DNA of 64,000 nucleotides from Mesodorylaimus sp. YZB2_4 (taxonomy: Eukaryota; Nematoda; Enoplea; Dorylaimida; Dorylaimidae), in the NCBI GenBank assembly GCA_030248295.1, contig JASANH010001297.1, forward strand, positions 372,001 through 436,000. The letters are read 5' to 3'. This document shows, piece after piece, positions 7,963-53,443 of the stretch (positions within the stretch are counted from its first letter, which is position 1; each line of letters opens with the position of its first letter). The notes beneath the pieces are model-generated. The model was not told where the DNA came from. It did no database searches and saw nothing but the letters and a program-made list of their open reading frames with translations. Both the position numbers and the translations under genes were made by a program.

Positions 7963-8651
7963 TTAGCGTTCGTTCGGGATCCCGGTCCCGATCCCGATCC
8001 CGGTCGGAATTGCCCCTCCCGAACCCGATCCCGATCCCGATAAAAAGTGTTCGGGATTGGGGACTGAATATTGTGGTGATAGAATGTTTTTATTGCAACA
8101 GGGAATGGGGCTGGTGTATGGGAAACGAGCTGTAGGGGTGATAATGGCATGATCGGATGAAACTACTCCCATAAAATGCACAAGTCCTGCTTTTTCTGAT
8201 GTACGATTTGCGCCCAGTTGGATACAGTAACAGCCCGCATTTGCCATCATTAGATGGTGGGCCTGCTGCAGAAGCTGGCGACATTCTGCTTGACACTGAC
8301 TCAGATGGTCATGGCCATCAAAATATTTCAGAAGGGGAAATATAGAGACCTTGGCGGATGATTGAATTGATAGAGGAGAAGGAGGGGATTTGTTTGCTGA
8401 TTTGTAACTGATTCTTCGCTTGCCTGATTTTGAATGCAATGATAAATACTGCACTAAAAATTATCCAAGGAAAGGGAATCTGTGGCTTTTAATTTGCTGG
8501 CTACTCAGGGTGGGTTGTAGGTCATCTATAGCCAATGAAAAGCGCTCTCTTCACAAAATCCTGATCCTGTCCCGATCCCGATCCCGGTCGGGATTGAGCG
8601 AGTCCCGATCCCGATACCGATCCCGAAAATAATGATCCCGAACGAACGCTA
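7963..8651. mobile_element. MITE with perfect 18-bp terminal inverted repeats and (GATCCC)n subterminal arrays
   Basis: The left end reads TAGCGTTCGTTCGGGATC and the right end is its exact reverse complement. Each end is followed inward by an array of GATCCC/GGGATC words, about 70 bases on the left and about 90 on the right, in opposite orientation. The 500-base interior has no transposase. Size and structure fit a non-autonomous DNA transposon. Whether the outermost TA is a target duplication cannot be decided from one copy. A much shorter GGGATCCTGATCCC patch occurs near 4185-4205. Confidence 0.75.
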
Positions 8652-12448: not shown

Positions 12449-12617
12449 TGGGGTCGTAGCCTAGTGGGTCAAGGCATCTGCCTCTCACGCTGGGTGCACA
12501 CTTAGGGGAGGGTTCGATTCCCGCCTGGGTAAGCCATGATTGTCAAATATGTGTTCCTTAGCCCTCCAGTGCGCTTTATAGCGCTTGGCTACGGATAAAA
12601 TATGACATGACATGACA
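12449..12617 (+). mobile_element. tRNA-derived SINE (copy A)
   Basis: The head resembles a class II tRNA with an A box (TAGCCTAGTGGG) and a B box (GGTTCGATTCCC). It is followed by a conserved body (TGATTGTCAAATATGTGTTC) and the tail word CAGTGCGCTTTATAGCGCTTGG. The 3' end is an ATGACATGAC short tandem repeat. The same unit recurs at 28735-28904 and 38974-39140, and in inverted copies. Confidence 0.85.
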
Positions 12618-22107: not shown

Positions 22108-22180
22108 TAGACCCTCCCGGGATCGAACCGGGGACCTTGAGTGTGTTAAACTCACGTGATAACCACTACACCAAGGGTCC
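22108..22180 (-). tRNA. tRNA-Val (anticodon AAC)
   Basis: A complete 73-base cloverleaf. The acceptor stem GGACCCT pairs with AGGGTCT (one G-U at the end), discriminator A. The D arm contains GGTGTAGTGGTTATCAC. The anticodon stem TGAGT/ACTCA carries loop TTAACAC, giving anticodon AAC. The T stem CCCGG/CCGGG encloses TTCGATC. The A and B boxes are intact. All stems pair, unlike the degenerate SINE heads around it, and no SINE tail follows. T-rich sequence downstream (3' side, AAAATAAATT on the minus strand) is only a weak terminator. Confidence 0.88.
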
Positions 22181-27070: not shown

Positions 27071-28734
27071 TAAAAAAGGCAAACTGTTTTCCATGGGTCG
27101 AACCTTATTGTCGTAAATTTTTTGACATTGCAATGCTATAATAAAAAATTGTGCAAAACCTATGGTTTCAATTTGTCTAAAAATTTGATGATATAAATTA
27201 AAATTCTCGAAATTCCTAAAAAGTCAACTAAAAACCAGCATGCCATAAAATTCGATCAAAGTATACGAAAGTATTTACCGGGCCAAAACTTTGATCGAAA
27301 TCACCCAAATTTGACTGCAGTACTGAAGAAAAAATTGCAGTGCAAAATAATAAAATGTTTTTGAAACTAGAAAATTAGACTTTATACTCGCGCTTCTAAT
27401 TTCAATAATCTAACACCACTGATACCACAAACCAATTTTTTCGCGGCCTAAGCTTTCATGAATCGAAGCTTGTATGTAGACCCGGGGCGAAGTGCGAGCA
27501 GAGCCCTGTCGAGCGAGTATACATAAAACAAATTAATTAAAAATAGTGAAATGTGATCGGCTAATGGGTCGGTCACCCCGTCGATTTAGGACAGGTATAA
27601 GGTAAAATTGAAAAATATATTCAATAGAAAACGTGCCAAAATAGCAGACACCTCCTCGTAATTTTATAAGGGGCATGGACCTGTTCGAGTTAGTAATATT
27701 ACTAGCACGCGTCCATAGTCGACCAGTAATCGAGGACGGGTCGGCCGACCAAGAACGACCTTATGTTATGAAAATGGTTCGATACGAGGCAAAATTAGAG
27801 ACTAAAGGAGACAGAAAAAAAGACTAAATTCAATCAACGAGAGACTATGGACTGAGGGTGCAATCAGCCATCGGAAATGCGAACAGGACACGAGTCGAAT
27901 CCTAAACTAGAAGGTGTCGAAAATTCTCAATTTCACGCATCCACACTCCCCGCCCTGACATATCCTATTTGAGGAGAAAGTCTCAGAGCTAGCTGACAGG
28001 CCGAGTCCAATTGCTCACGTGTCCAATGATGAGTGGGTGCATTGGCCAAGATGAATGTGAGGGGGCATGAAGGAACGCAAAAAATGTGCTTTTTCACACG
28101 CTTCCATACAAGCTTGCACGAAATATTGGCGAATTTCGATTCTAATTACGTTAATTAATTACCGATTGGTAAATTAGACTCTAAAGTAGCTTCGGTCTGA
28201 GAAACACTTCAGTCATATGGCGTGACCGATTGAAGCTGAGCACAAGATCGCGCTCTTCTTGGCATGTAATTTATCAAGCTAAGAGCGACCGTCAAATTTT
28301 CGATTGGCATATCTGAAAATATAAAATAAGTTTAATAAGGCACTGTATTAGCAATGCAAAATTCAGATCAGACGAAGAAGTATTTTTTCTGTGTCTGGCT
28401 AGCCTATTTGCATTTTAAAGTATAAAGGATCGAGGCATGCGGACGGCCAGGCAGTACTTTACTGAATTTAAAAAAGCGGAAGAATATGTTTCTAGACAAA
28501 TCAGAGATTTTAGAAAAGTTTGACTTTTACATGGGGAAGTCATAGTTTTTTTCATGCAATAGCGCCACTTAAAAACTTGAGTCAAGTGCGTGGTGGCTGG
28601 TTTAGCCGTGCCGTGGGTTCGATTCCCTCTCAGATCACACGTTTTTCTTCCAGTTCATTGCCTTCAGAGTCAAAGCGAATAGAGCCAAAGGTCCGAGGGG
28701 TTGTTTGGAACAACTCCATCTCAACAAGAAATGC
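27071..28734. other. Intergenic, no supported gene
   Basis: No conserved exon, RNA gene or repeat family was recognised. A tRNA-like B box occurs near 28612 (GGGTTCGATTCCC). Confidence 0.45.
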
Positions 28735-28904
28735 CTGGGTCGTGGCCTAGCGGGTTTAGGCATCTGCCTGTCACGCTGGATGCGCACTCACAGGCGAGGG
28801 TTCGACTCCCGCCTGGGTTTAAAGATAATTGTTAATTTATGTGTTCTTACCCCTCGAGTGCGCTGTATAGTGCATGGCTATGGATATAGGATGGCATGAC
28901 ATGG
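28735..28904 (+). mobile_element. tRNA-derived SINE (copy B)
   Basis: Head GGTCGTGGCCTAGCGGG, then CATCTGCCTGTCACGCTGG and B box GGTTCGACTCCCG. The body is TAATTGTTAATTTATGTGTT and the tail CGAGTGCGCTGTATAGTGC, ending in GGCATGACATGG. Same family as copies at 12449 and 38974. Confidence 0.85.
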
Positions 28905-29514: not shown

Positions 29515-29808
29515 AAGATCATTTGGACCTCAAGGTCAAGGTCAGAAATCTATCAAAATCCTAATTGACCGGACCCTTTTCAAAGTCAGGGTTCATGTTC
29601 ATGTTTTACCACATCACCAAACGCTTATGCGCACTCGAGGGTGAAGAGACACATTTTACACGAAATGATTTACCGGCCCGCGAGTCGAACACTCGCCCGT
29701 AACTGCGCACCTGGCGTGAGGAGCACATGGCTAACCCACCAGGACACGAGGCCGGTAAAACAGGGTCGGGTCAGACAGTAAAAAACCGAGGTCATTGGAA
29801 CACTAGCC
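29515..29808. mobile_element. Small GGTCA-repeat MITE (copy 2), split by a SINE
   Basis: The ends 29515-29606 and 29762-29808 are the reverse complement of the two ends of 19905-20100 (ACCTCAAGGTCAAGGTCAGA on one side; CAGACAGTAAAAAACCGAGG and TCATTGGAACAC on the other). The middle is replaced by a minus-strand SINE, so the SINE inserted later. Confidence 0.65.
29622..29757 (-). mobile_element. tRNA-derived SINE (copy D, 3'-truncated)
   Basis: On the minus strand the head is GGCCTCGTGTCCTGGTGGG, the B box TGTTCGACTCGC, and the body ends in CACCCTCGAGTGCGCATAAG. The terminal ATGAC repeat is absent. Confidence 0.7.
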
Positions 29809-38973: not shown

Positions 38974-39140
38974 TGGGCTAGTGGCCTAGCGGGTTAAGGC
39001 GTCTGCCTATCCGCTGGGTGCGCACTTCCAGGGGAGTGTTCGACTCCCGCCTCCGCACAAAATGATTGTTAAGTATTTGTTCCTTAGCCCTCGAGTGCGC
39101 TGTGGTGCTTGGCTATGGATAAAATATGACATGATGACAT
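38974..39140 (+). mobile_element. tRNA-derived SINE (copy C)
   Basis: Head GGGCTAGTGGCCTAGCGGG and B box TGTTCGACTCCCG. The body is AAATGATTGTTAAGTATTTG and the tail CGAGTGCGCTGTGGTGCTTGG then ATGACATGATGACAT. This tail is the closest of the copies to the 3' end of the LINE at 50.5-53.4 kb. Confidence 0.87.
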
Positions 39141-39320
39141 AAGCTGACGATTCCATTTGGAGTCTGATTTACTTGCACGATTGGTATTAGTACCATGCCT
39201 ACAGACAGCTGACCTTGGTAGCAATGATCTTCAGACATACTGTATCACTCTTGGAATGTCCATAGTCTGTGGTACGGTTTCTCAAGCCAGAGCTTCATGT
39301 CACGTCATACTTTAACCAAA

Positions 39321-39474
39321 GCCGAGCACACACTCGAACTTACACCGAACTCGAGGGTAAATAAACGCATATAGTTTGACAATTTACCTTGGCGAGATTC
39401 GAACCCGCATGTAAGTGCACTCCCTACGTAGGGGGAGAGGCAGACTCCTTAACCCATTAGACCACGACCCGGGC
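39321..39474 (-). mobile_element. tRNA-derived SINE (copy E)
   Basis: On the minus strand: GGGTCGTGGTCTAATGGG, AGTCTGCCTCTCCCC, B box GGTTCGAATCTCGCC, body AAATTGTCAAACTATATGCG and CCCTCGAGTTCGGTGTAAG. It lies about 180 bases from copy C in the opposite orientation. The terminal repeat is lost. Confidence 0.75.
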
Positions 39475-44700: not shown

Positions 44701-47700
44701 AGGTGAACCGACTTCCTGATCTCTGCATTTTCTCAGAAATCATGTCAAGCACTATACAGAGCACTCAAGGACTAAGGAACACATATTTGGCAATCATTTT
44801 TTACCCAGTTGGGAGTCGAACCCTGCCCTGGCTGTGAGCGCCCAGCGTGAGAGACAGACAGACCGCCAGGCCACATACACGAGTCTCCCTCCCTCCACTC
44901 TAATCCCAAGACCGCTCATGTTTTCTGTTCTCCCAAGTCAAAAAAAGAGAAAGAAACTTGACTCAAAATCAGAAAAATTTCAACCTGATGGGCGCTGCTA
45001 GCATTTGGCGGGAGATTCAAAATTATTATTGCGCCAGTTCGTGTTAGCTAAACTCAAACTTATTTCGTGCTTGTGCTAAAATCATTTTTTTTGTGAAATT
45101 AGCTCGAACTCTCTTCGGTATTCATGATATCCTTGTTTTTTAGTATTCTCGAGTTTTATCAGATGAAGGAGGCGCGTGCATTGAAAAAAAGCAGCTACAA
45201 CATTTTGATACTCGCTATTATTCTTCGGATACATGCCAAATGAATTTAGTGTTGCTAAAAATACAAAACAAATGCGGGTGTAAACCGTACGGGACACCAT
45301 GCGATTTAAGTAAGTCTTTGATCTTGTATGACAACTTGCTCAAAAACCCAAAATTGTATGTTTCAGAAAATGTGACGTATTGCAACATAATCCAACATTT
45401 CGATTGTGTCATGTGGCAAGATTTAAGCAAGCTCTTAAACTTACTACATTTTATTCCCCCTGAAAGAACATATGCTTGACATTTCAGACGTAAAAGACGC
45501 TGCTAGCAAATGCAAGCAAGCCTGTTTCACCATCGATTATGAAGTATCCTTGTCTCAGATCAAAATCTCCCCTTCGATTTGGCCCATATTAGTCGATTCG
45601 GAACAAGAGAAGAAAATTTATGACACGTTTAATGCCTCGCAAGAAGCTGTTTCCAGGTACGATAAGAAACGAGCTGGCATGCTTAAAACGATGGTGGAAG
45701 CTGTCGAAAATGCGTCAGCACTTTTGAGAAGTTTGGGTGTTGAACCACCGAGTGGCGAGAATGTGTCCAACGATGCTCGGGTACCCTTCGATCGAACGAT
45801 GAATCCACAATGTTTCGCTGGTGTGAAGCAAAAATACGCGTATTTGTTTGAAGAAATGAAAGAACGAGGACTGGTCGGAGGAGCCTGCACATTCGGGGCT
45901 GCAAGCACTGAAGGTGAGGCCAGTATCGATGCGTGACTTTCTTTTCTGAGTTTGCAGTCAAAAGCATATGGTCATGGATTGAATGACCTGGTCATCAGTC
46001 TGTGCTGTATATATGCATCCAGCACAGTCTCTGCTGTATATGTGCATCCAGCACAGACTGACTCCAGCAGAGATGCTGTTCTTTGTACTCACTATGCATA
46101 TTCGACAGCATTTGAGTACAATATGTATATATATATATTATTATATATACATATGTGTATATACATAGTATAAACGGTATGTCATTATATACTCATATGT
46201 ATGTATATACTGTATATATGTACAGTATGTACGGTATGTGTACTATATATTCTCATATATATATAGTATACATGAGTATATATACCCGTATATATATATA
46301 TGTAATGTGAGTGGCGTGTATACACCATGAATGGTATATGCTTATTACATATGTAAGTTATACTATTCATTTTCATATATATATCTTTCTGTCTCTTTTT
46401 GAGAGTTTTTAAAAGTTTAAACATCAATGCCACATGCAGTATGGCACAGGCATAAATTATCGTGAGCGGATTGGCATGCTAACCAGCCATATACTACTTA
46501 TGACGCCTGATAGTACTCGCAATGATCAGTGAATGTCATTCCAGTGCATCCTACCTTAGCGGCCACGCATACAGGACTGTAGACTTGACATACCAGACCA
46601 GAAGACCAATAGCACAAGTAGCAAGGACTGTGTCAAATCATGTAACGAAAATGAAACCGGCCAGTCAAAAAGAGAATTTTTCAGATGTCAAGAAAACAGT
46701 GAGTACGAGCTCGTGTTTGGATCAAATAGCCCCCGTTTGGTTGGATTTTTATCCACAAGACAAGTTCATATCAAACAGTTCCGAAAACTCGACTATTCAA
46801 TTGTACAGAACCAAAGTGGTCGATGAGTTCGCCCAATTCGTGGCCAGTATGATGGGCGTGTACGCCTCGCCCTGGTGTCTAGCTCAACCAACCAGATTAA
46901 AAGAATATTGGGAAATTAGGCAGAATATCGATTTGTATTATCAGGGTAATATTACCTTAAAAGAATGGGTGGACAAGCAATCTACTGGCACTGGAGAGAG
47001 ATATAAGGTAACATAAATTTTGGGACATTGCATTTGGTTAAAATTCAAATTCAAAATTTGAATTAATATTATTTTTTAGACTAATTTTGCCAATGTGTTT
47101 ACAAATCACTACTTGATCATGCAAAATAATTTGGAAAATATGGTTATAAAGAGCAGGAATATATCGGATACATATGCAAATCGCTCACAATTTTGGACAT
47201 ATTTTGGTCTATATATGGGCGTATGCCAGCATGTCTACAATTACTCGGCCTGTACAAATAATGCAACTGCGGGTATGTTGCCTTGTCTATTGCCGTGGTT
47301 ATACTCTCAGAAAAATCAATAAATTATACAGGCCTGTCTAAATTGCACATTCGATTATAGATGGCTGGGCCAGTTCGATGTGCTCATCGGTTCCGTTTCA
47401 CACTTTCGAATCTTTCTTCATCGAATCGATCGATTGTTTCTCGAGTGATCTCGCAACGAATTTGTCCGATTATAAAACTCAGGTAGAGAAGGCAGCTGAT
47501 AAATATAAAGCGGCTGTGGAAAATTTGGAAGCTTTCCTAATGTCATATGGCAAACGATGGGAATTCGGTGATGATTTCTTTTCGTAAGTGAATTTTTTGA
47601 TATTTTTTATTCGTCTTATGACAATAAGTTCTTGGATAACATATTTTTTTAAGGAATAATATTGTCGGATTGAAAATATTTTTCGCAGATTTAAGTCAAG

Positions 47701-50502: not shown

Positions 50503-53443
50503 ATGGCCTATCTGGTTGTTTATCATTCGATCAGACCTATCTGGTTGTTTATCATTATGACTCCTGTTTGGAGATTCGGTTTTGGGAACATCAACAGCAT
50601 AATTGGGAAGTTTAGTATACTTCGAGGTGAAATCGAGGCCGAGCAGTTCGATTTTTACGGCGTTGCTGAGACCAAAATTGATTCGTCGATCTTGGACACT
50701 GAGATTCATATCCCTGGATACGATCTTTTTCGGCAAGATCGAAAACATGGAGGCGGCGGTCTTGCCCTCTACTGCAGTAATGCTCTCCCTTGCATACGCT
50801 TTAAAAATCATGTGGAGTTCGGTATCACTCAAACGGGTCTGGAAACACTAGCAGTTCGAATTGGGAATCCCCGTCATTATATCATTGCAGTGGTTGTTTA
50901 TATCCCTAAAACTTCCCCTGCATTGATGCCCTTTACGATTACTTGTGCTTGGCTTTTGGGCGAAATTTTCAAAGATTAGTAATTTTTGGCGACTTCAATG
51001 CTAACATGTTAACTGATTCTCCTGCCCGTCGGCACCTAGTGCACTTGGTGTCTTCTATTGGAGGAACTCAGACTGTGACTTCCCCTACACGTAGAGATCG
51101 TACTCTGCTGGATGTCGTCATTTTTGGTGACCCAGGGCGCCATCGCTCGACTGAAGTTCTGGATCCTATTTCTGATCATAATTCGATCGCTGTCGAAATG
51201 TCAGGGTTTTTTGTAAAGAACCCACCCGACTGTCGACGAATTTGGCTTCTGAAACGGGCCAATTGGGTTTCGGTCAACAGTCACCTTCAACAACAGGATC
51301 TCTCAAATTTGGTTCGATCTTCGAGTTCAGTTGACGTCGCCTGTTCATCGCTCACGGCTGCGATTAGAAAGGCATTAGATGAATTCGTTCCTCGAAAACT
51401 AGTTCGATGTGATCGTCGGAAATCTTGGATGCATTCAGAATTACTGTCTCTGATTCGTCAGAAAAACATGGCCTACAAGCTGTGGAAGCGGAATGGTTCA
51501 GATCTGGATCGTAATTTATTTTTGACTCTTCGGCGTCAATGCAGAAAGGGAATACGATCCGCCAAAATTGCCTTCGTGTCTGCAAACTTCTCGAACTGTA
51601 GTTCAGTCGCAGAGTTCTGGTCCGCATATCGTAGTCTGGCGCCTAACTGTCGTAAAATTCCTGCCTTACTGAATGATTTTGATCGCCCGATTTTTGGGAA
51701 TGGAGAAAAAGCCAATGCCTTGAATACCCATTTTGCGAGTAATTTCAACCGTGCCGATTATGGTGAATTTCGTCTGCCAGATCTGGATCCAGATGACATG
51801 AGCGATTATTCTGTCACAGAAGTCTTCGTTCTCAGGGAACTTCGTCAGCTTAGATCTAAGAGCGCGCCAGGGGAAGATAATTTAACTGCTCCTGTTCTCA
51901 AAAACCTGGCAACTACTATCGCTCCACCACTCACCCTCCTTTTCAATCGATCACTCGACGATGGACAATTTCCAACTTGCTGGAAGCTAGCAAAGGTCGT
52001 CCCAATTCCAAAACCCGGGGACAAAAGTAGCATCAAATCATGGCGACCAATTTCTCTACTGTCGATAATGTCAAAAGTCTTCGAGCGGCACATTGACCAG
52101 CTTCTCAGGTCGCGCATCATTCTGTCACCTGAGCAGCATGGATTTTGCAAGCGTCGCGGTACAAACTCTGCTCTTATTGGTGCGACCCAATATATTCATG
52201 ACCATTTAAATTCGAGAAACTGTCGTTTTGTCGCAGGAGTCTTCCTGGACCTCAGAAAGGCCTTTGACCAGGTTTCACACTTTCAATTACTTCGTTGTTT
52301 GCAAACTGTTCATCATATTCCGCCAAATCTGGTCCGTTGGTTATCATCATATTTGCTTGATCGATCTCAGAGGGTCGTCATCGAAGAATGTTCTTCCGAC
52401 TTGACATCAGTGAGCTCTGGGGTGCCGCAGGGTAGTATTTTAGGCCCCACGCTCTTCGTCGCTTATATCGACCCGCTTCTTCGCGACTTTCGTGTTCGTT
52501 TCCCGCATTTGCATCTACAGGCGTACGCTGATGATACGGCCTTATTCATTCCTGGTCAAACTTTGGACGATATCGATCGGCTGGGACAACCTGCCATGAA
52601 CTGGATTTCAGAGTGGGTCGAATCAGCAGGTCTGGACTTTAACCTTTCTAAATCTCAAGCTGTCTTGTTCAGATATGGTTATGGTCAGCTTCCACGAATG
52701 CCCTGCTTGAGTATTCGGGACAGACCAATAGAATTTGTTCCAGAGGTGTCTTACCTGGGTGTTATCCTCAGTTCTGACTTGAAATTCTCAGAACATGTTT
52801 CTAGTGTTGTAAAAAAATGTAATGTTATGATTGGGGCCCTGAGACGCAAACTTGGAAATCATTTATCTCCTAAAGTCTTTGGTGATGTCTATTCTGCTTG
52901 TATTCGGTCTATTCTTGAATATGGCTGTGTCGCATTGGCACCCACTCTGAAAGGGGATATATCTAATCTTGAACGTGCACATTTATATGCCTTGAGGCTG
53001 TACTTGAACGATTTTACTGTGTCCTATGCAGAGGGTCTGCGCAGGGCTGGTTGGTCCTCACTTCGGGATAGACGTAACTGTTTGAAACTGTGTCAGTTTT
53101 ACAAATTCTATCATGTCCATCATGACTTTGGGAACGCTCGTTTTTTGCATCGATCTGACTTGCGTTCGAGTGATAGGACATGTGAAGCCCATCATTTGAT
53201 TATCCCAAGGCACTTTTACGAGAGTTTTAAACAAAGTTTCATCTTTTCGACAATTTCTTTATGGAATCAGTTGTCTGAGGTAGTGGCGCTATCTGACTGG
53301 CCCCTTTTTCGACAAGGTTTATCTAGGCTAGTTTTTAAGTAATCATGTTTCCCTTATTGTATTTCTGTGTTTTATACTCCCTGAGTGCGCCTGTGGTGCT
53401 TGAGTATAAATAAAGTATGAAGTATGAAGTATGAAGTATGGCA
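50503..53443 (+). mobile_element. Near-complete non-LTR retrotransposon (CR1/Jockey group), one frameshift
   Basis: The ORF2-type protein has an N-terminal AP-like endonuclease starting FGNINSIIGKF, with YGVAETKID and HGGGGLALY. It continues in a second frame from about 50922 with IFGDFNANM and ISDHNSI. Reverse transcriptase follows: SAPGEDNLTAPVLKN, WRPISLLSIMSKVFE, EQHGFC, FLDLRKAFDQVSH, SSGVPQGSILGPTLF and the catalytic AYADDTALF. A C-terminal conserved region follows, and a stop lies at 53340-53342. No internal stop is seen in the 799-codon second frame. The 1-nt shift near 50922 (IPKTSPAL to DALYDYL) inactivates the copy. No ORF1 is visible upstream, so the 5' end is truncated or ORF1 is lost. 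The 3' UTR holds CTGAGTGCGCCTGTGGTGCTTG and ends in (GTATGAA)n. Confidence 0.93.
50943..53342 (+). pseudogene. LINE ORF2, second reading frame (endonuclease end, reverse transcriptase)
   Basis: This is the long in-frame part of the element above, about 799 codons. It begins inside the endonuclease, before the GDFNAN motif. The YADD box, LRKAFD and GVPQGS motifs are intact, so catalytic residues of the reverse transcriptase are retained. Only the frameshift separates it from the endonuclease start at 50503. There is no host-gene context; it stands between the channel gene and a GPCR remnant. Confidence 0.9.

Follow-up and report, generated by a model that had tools for sequence, protein, structure and literature searches.

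Two tRNA-like SINE families of the nematode Mesodorylaimus sp. YZB2_4, here called SINE-1 and SINE-2, end in a tail that also forms the 3′-end of a broad group of LINEs in the same genome, and this tail very probably serves as the 3′ recognition element of that LINE group, through which both SINEs would be copied in trans, the SINE-1 tail most likely being derived from a LINE resembling the L092 family. Mobilisation of the SINEs via the tail by these or related LINEs appears well supported by the sequence comparisons. An initial annotation of the window, by which we mean the whole stretch of 64,000 nucleotides that was analysed, had proposed that a LINE located there, which it assigned to the CR1/Jockey group, or a relative of it, mobilises a SINE family with the same tail. 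Homologous, alike-folding tails with short tandem repeats were indeed found in the LINEs and the SINEs, but the window LINE did not emerge as the specific donor.

The window LINE and its 3′-end

The window LINE, which is interrupted, lies on the plus strand at 50547..53342 (start approximate) with its repeat extending to 53440, as determined from Pfam and PDB matches and the list of open reading frames. Its endonuclease is split, with a partial domain in a frame that stops at 50979 and the remainder in an 810-aa frame (50910-53342) that continues into the reverse transcriptase. The latter was identified by Pfam RVT_1 (E 7.7e-34), the PDB matches were to R2, LINE-1 and other reverse transcriptases, and the Pfam matches of the endonuclease (E 0.016 to 0.078) were all below the curated cut-offs. 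Using the 3′ UTR as query, 40 genomic matches were scored, the best of 58 candidates and including the window's own; the next four copies were 98-99% alike, and this near-identity indicates that the family was recently active.

As the initial annotation had quoted it, the 3′ UTR contains GAGTGCGCCTGTGGTGCTTG exactly at 53383-53402 (one match, and none in 100 shuffles), followed by AGTATAAATAAAG and a terminal tandem repeat of four AAGTATG copies at 53413..53440 (+). The whole tail was matched at 53361..53422 (+) by the covariance model R1 with 66.2 bits and an E value of 6.1e-14, the window LINE (L039) being itself one of the 21 sequences behind this model. The 5′ and 3′ sides of the predicted outer stem, TTTATACTC and GAGTATAAA, are located at 53371..53379 and 53402..53410, respectively, and the predicted inner stem GCGCC-TGT-GGTGC at 53387..53399, all on the plus strand; the inner stem is given in the consensus register, drawn from covariation across 21 LINE families, with a second register possible.

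Two imperfect 6-base tandem arrays (GATCCC, ATCCCG) are found elsewhere in the window, at 7978-8041 and 8558-8626. Stretches resembling COX1 and carrying TGA codons were seen in a 488-kb contig (L155, G000:C73:253616-254216) and in other contigs; the pieces occur in both orientations, their TGA must be read as an amino acid, and the 601-base piece is open under genetic codes 4, 5, 9 and 13 alike. They are probably nuclear copies of mitochondrial DNA.

Fold and spread of the tail among LINE families

LINE 3′-ends were read at 90 places (30 loci with flanks and 60 fetched), of the 150 scored among 1542 candidates, and one tail was taken for each of 21 distinct-looking families. These tails were picked partly by a hairpin-finding script, which gave no hairpin for L057, L058 and L109 and settled on different sites in some further loci, so that the set is biased towards visible hairpins. 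The families differ widely in protein, with matches from 100% (the window copy itself) down to 44% identity to the last 140 aa of the window LINE.

RNAalifold predicted a two-stem fold from the 21 LINE tails alone, with no structure supplied. With the pairing of the L092 row as the tested structure, 89.7% of the 271 cells were paired and changes on both sides occurred in 10 of the 13 pairs. The covariation was 0.614 versus a mean of 0.263 for shuffled alignments (0 of 500 reached it) and a maximum of 0.144 for slid structures, with the caveat that related sequences can outdo shuffles without any structure and that a structure derived from one row tends to outdo slid ones. No single control amounts to proof; it is the agreement of the unsupplied prediction, the shuffles and the slid controls that carries the case for the predicted fold. 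Conservation of the hairpin, a check that the initial annotation had suggested, is thereby supported, but the predicted structure is larger than the small hairpin described: it spans ~40 nt and comprises two stems, one outer and one inner. A wider alignment of 87 distinct rows, which was fitted to the model, gave 91.1% paired cells and a covariation of 0.591.

The outer stem differs in sequence among the LINE families yet stays paired, with one pair (columns 18 and 55) broken in 11 of the 21, and its conservation, as shown by comparing the predicted pairs across families, is well supported by covariation. The register of the inner stem is less certain: the consensus register has 96.4% of its cells paired and one pair that changes from G-C to A-U in 9 cells, and a possible alternative (columns 28-33 with 43-48) has 95.2% paired and no two-sided change. 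A29, T31 and T47 are invariant in the 21 LINE families, G30 and T48 are present in 20 and G28 in 17; as these bases would be paired in the alternative register, a fixed base and a fixed pair are inseparable at these positions. Downstream of the hairpin, TAAA and ATGA are nearly fixed across the families. The inner part of the single-sequence minimum-energy fold departs from the consensus in three of six tails (L039, L092 and L067), and the folding energies of seven tails were modestly better than those of shuffles (z -1.2 to -3.5), so that support for the fold comes from covariation and not from energy.

At E up to 0.1, the covariance model built on the 21 LINEs matched all but two (L062 and L118) of 97 LINE-derived loci, a total of 95, with weak matches (E 0.0005 to 0.05) in L146, L115, L143 and L109; the 97 include the 21 loci that built the model and many further copies of the same families, and leave out L045, whose tail is interrupted, and the SINEs L144 and L145. 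In the genome, 264 places matched a pattern written for both kinds of tail, and its reversed control matched none. When the LINE-only model was run without filters over the whole window, the best SINE tails were detected at E ~1e-11 to 1e-12, which supports homology of the LINE and SINE tails by comparison. Both kinds of element end in a short tandem repeat and not in poly(A), a trait of the stringent type, and some copies have 1-2 units only.

SINE copies and the LINE tails closest to them

SINE-1 copies were found at the four places given by the initial annotation. Three are on the plus strand, at 12450-12616 (tail match 12545-12607, 56.2 bits with the covariance model), 28734-28903 (tail match 28835-28896, 26.5 bits, decayed tail) and 38975-39134 (tail match 39071-39131, 58.4 bits), and a decayed one is on the minus strand at 44746-44859 (17.9 bits, E 0.11, not significant alone). 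The tail string quoted for them is exact at 39093-39112, and no further place was found with up to 3 mismatches; the tails of the remaining copies are looser (CAGTGCGCTTTATAGCGCTTGG, GAGTGCGCTGTATAGTGCATGG and GAGTGCTCTGTATAGTGCTTGA). An old, diverged relative of SINE-1 with 70% identity (14 bits, E 1.1, not significant) is located at 39295-39473 on the minus strand, ~160 bases from a younger and oppositely oriented SINE-1 copy. The LINE-only model also exposed SINE-2, a second abundant tRNA-like family that the initial annotation had overlooked, with a window copy at 29586-29760 on the minus strand (tail match 29597-29658, 56.3 bits, E 2e-11). SINE-2 was matched at 40 further places in the genome, the best of 2170 candidates, 39 of which were 95-96% alike along almost the entire query; six of the scored copies were read.

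SINE-1 is composed of a tRNA-like head, a short linker and a LINE-like tail. With the Rfam tRNA model, the head scored 26.0 bits in L030, below the gathering score of 29, and L037 had no hit at E values of up to 1; TGGCCTAGCGGG and GGTTCGACTCC from SINE copies fit what we take to be the A- and B-box consensus. Separately, ARAGORN predicted a tRNA-Val (AAC) at 22108-22180 (-) of the window, which is absent from the Rfam list at gathering score. Among 27 parsed copies of the 30 obtained, which were top hits and no random sample, 12 were identical over 155-158 nt, a comparison that shows SINE-1 to have been recently active. Two main loop classes were distinguished, with C-G versus U-A at one inner-stem pair. 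One young SINE-1 copy (L021) sits between 15-base inverted repeats (TTGATTTCAGGATAC ... GTATCCTGAAATCAA), as if inserted in a palindromic element.

Target-site duplications, another check suggested by the initial annotation, exceed expectation but are short and weak. In 26 of the 30 copies (three having no parsed tail and one no recognised head), the mean was 2.31 nt versus 1.34 for swapped flanks, a value reached by 3 of 2000 swaps, and duplications of at least 5 nt were present in only 4 of the 26. An earlier test with wide offsets on 27 of the 30 copies gave 3.33 versus 2.32, the largest of 300 swaps being 3.33.

The SINE tails are predicted to adopt the LINE fold. SINE-1 keeps 12 of the 13 consensus pairs, its minimum-energy fold adding one small stem to the consensus fold, and the SINE-2 tail folds alike with one bulge, so combining the fold of SINE-1 with another stem and another repeat (AACATG). 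All support for a role of the tail is comparative, as would also suit a tail shared through common descent only and playing no present part in mobilisation; this reading is highly improbable, however, because a long-neutral tail would hardly be expected to retain compensatory pairing across numerous families and the young SINE copies still have an intact tail.

To rank possible donors, the 74-nt 3′ part of SINE-1 was locally aligned against the 90 LINE 3′-ends. The L092 family scored 72 (L092 and L105), 67 (L099), 62 (L087) and 59 (L104), with the similarity between SINE-1 and the L092 type extending over 67 alignment columns; the window family scored 58 (L108) and 53 (window copy), and the largest of 2000 shuffles 29. 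The sharing of a tail between the window LINE and the SINE, as originally claimed, is therefore upheld (53 versus 29), and one of the findings that the initial annotation had named as evidence against its proposal, a different LINE family with a much better match, applies in a mild form (72 versus 53), making an L092-like LINE the closest donor found among the 90 ends. That the window family is itself both donor and helper of SINE-1 is improbable: it was recently active, both of its alignments are far over the shuffle maximum, and it has GGTGCTTG and GTATGA in common with SINE-1, but L092-type LINEs score higher and have ATTGTCAAT, CTTA-CCCTCGAGTGCGCCT and more in common with SINE-1, and the outer stem reads TACTC/GAGTA in the window LINE versus TAGCC/GGCTA in SINE-1.

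BLAST with the L092 3′ UTR returned SINEs among its hits (L144 and L145). The SINE-1 loop motif followed by GAATAAA was present at 33 places in the genome and at none in the reversed control; by eye, 11 are L092-type (10 with one identical string, and one variant at a place also matched by the L092 query), 20 SINE-1-like and 2 SINE-2-like. For SINE-2, too, the best genuine LINE tail is that of the L092 family, with a score of 43 versus 28 for the largest of 2000 shuffles. Two seemingly good matches were rejected: L081, which scored 67 with SINE-1, is really a headless SINE-1 3′ fragment in a LINE flank (~205-263, 23.7 bits with the covariance model, directly after the LINE terminal repeat), and the best match of L104 to SINE-2 is likewise a separate downstream piece. 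The SINE-1 outer stem combined with GGCTANGAATAAA matched 19 places in the genome, all SINE-like by eye, and no LINE was recognised among them. Likewise, a pattern for SINE-type tails lacking a SINE upstream gave 10 places, none recognised as a LINE; within the 140 nt read, remains of a SINE head are present in six and not in four (L072-L075), of which L072 ends like SINE-2. Most likely, the SINE-1 tail comes from an L092-like LINE rather than from the window LINE itself.

The SINE-1 repeat ATGAC and apical loop UUAU are closer to L086 and L096 than to L092, which leaves the present helper uncertain. Because the outer-stem sequence can change freely and what is fixed is the fold plus a few bases, SINE-1 might also be a generalist copied by several LINE families of the group, a serious possibility although short of an even chance. 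Its tail resembles a mosaic, with the loop motif of L092, the UUAU of L086 and L096, the AGCC/GGCU of L096, the ATGAC repeat of L086 and the GGTGC of the window LINE, and all 21 LINE families share some unpaired bases; such short shared features may nevertheless arise by chance, and recognition in zebrafish is reported to be strict for each LINE (PMC4176376).

One outer-stem difference sets the SINEs apart from the LINEs: SINE-1 has C16-G56 versus U-A in 20 of the 21 LINEs. Column 16 is C in both SINE families (SINE-2 placed by eye) and T in 20 of the 21 LINEs, and the C has a G partner in the predicted folds of both SINEs. The longest T-run in the SINE-1 tail is TT and the SINE-2 tail has one TTT, versus TTT in 20 and TTTT in 6 of the 21 LINE tails. 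A speculative and rather doubtful extension, based on two SINE families, is that one structural tail code, made of a variable outer stem and a few fixed bases, serves the whole LINE radiation with the SINEs as generalists, and that the column-16 C might preserve the stem yet interrupt T-runs at which Pol III would stop.

Putative recognition of the tail and known LINE/SINE pairs

If the tail is the recognition element of the LINE group, as we favour, the transcript 3′-end would fold into two stems, the outer of ~9 and the inner of 4-5 pairs, most likely separated by an asymmetric internal loop with GAGU opposite UU, and the hairpin would be followed by UAAA-NN-AUGA and the short tandem repeat. 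It is probably this fold, together with the fixed bases, that the LINE protein recognises, and target-primed reverse transcription would begin at the tandem repeat. Because SINE-1 and SINE-2 bear this element, we infer that they are copied by a LINE protein supplied in trans, the present-day helper presumably belonging to the same group.

This arrangement is like that of UnaL2/UnaSINE1 of eel and ZfL2-1 and ZfL2-2 of zebrafish in its shared 3′ tail, stem-loop and terminal short repeat, and unlike the UnaL2/ZfL2 pairs in that, within a single genome, 21 LINE families and both SINE families display one two-stem fold. The UnaL2 3′ element presumably has an Rfam family of its own, and no match to that element was obtained in seven tail loci at E up to 10 or in the window at gathering score. 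The window gave no Rfam match for the tail at gathering score, and the seven loci gave four matches (E 5.1 to 8.7), of which two overlap the tail and none is a LINE element.

For two zebrafish L2-clade LINEs, experiments are reported to show that the tail is needed, that its stem can be exchanged (once at about half the rate) and its loop cannot, and that the LINE protein binds the tail stem-loop via a segment linking its endonuclease to its reverse transcriptase (PMC4176376); a variable but paired outer stem with fixed bases, as found here, would follow the same logic. The residue numbers published for this L2-type binding region place two tryptophans at a distance of 19 residues, with basic residues in the interval and beyond it (PMC4176376). 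The 810-aa frame of the window LINE contains one W-18 residues-W stretch, starting at residue 173 and followed by KR, which, being anchored by spacing only and differing at some basic positions, is a lead only to such a region.

Stems that tolerate replacement are described for stringent LINE/SINE pairs of the L2 and CR1 clades (PMC4176376, PMC3747384). The tails of plant L1-lineage LINEs with maize and sorghum SINEs are likewise conserved at the 3′-end with a compensatory variable stem, and bases next to the stem and within the loop are invariant, but they belong to another LINE clade and another host kingdom and fix other bases (PMC3747384). Tail sharing and compensatory stems were thus already known (PMC3747384, PMC4176376). 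Among titles and abstract openings, no published description of the present LINE/SINE pair was found, although a Repbase entry may exist.

What is unusual here is the breadth of the tail in one genome, together with a compensatory change, C16-G56, that is specific to the SINEs. The stringency with which a LINE protein chooses its RNA is known from few elements, and the 21 LINE and two SINE families would constitute a natural mutation series of one recognition element, which separates the near-fixed bases (the A and T of GAGT, TT, TAAA and ATGA) from those that are merely paired. With such a series, whether the choice depends on fold or sequence, and whether it is strict or shared, would become directly testable.
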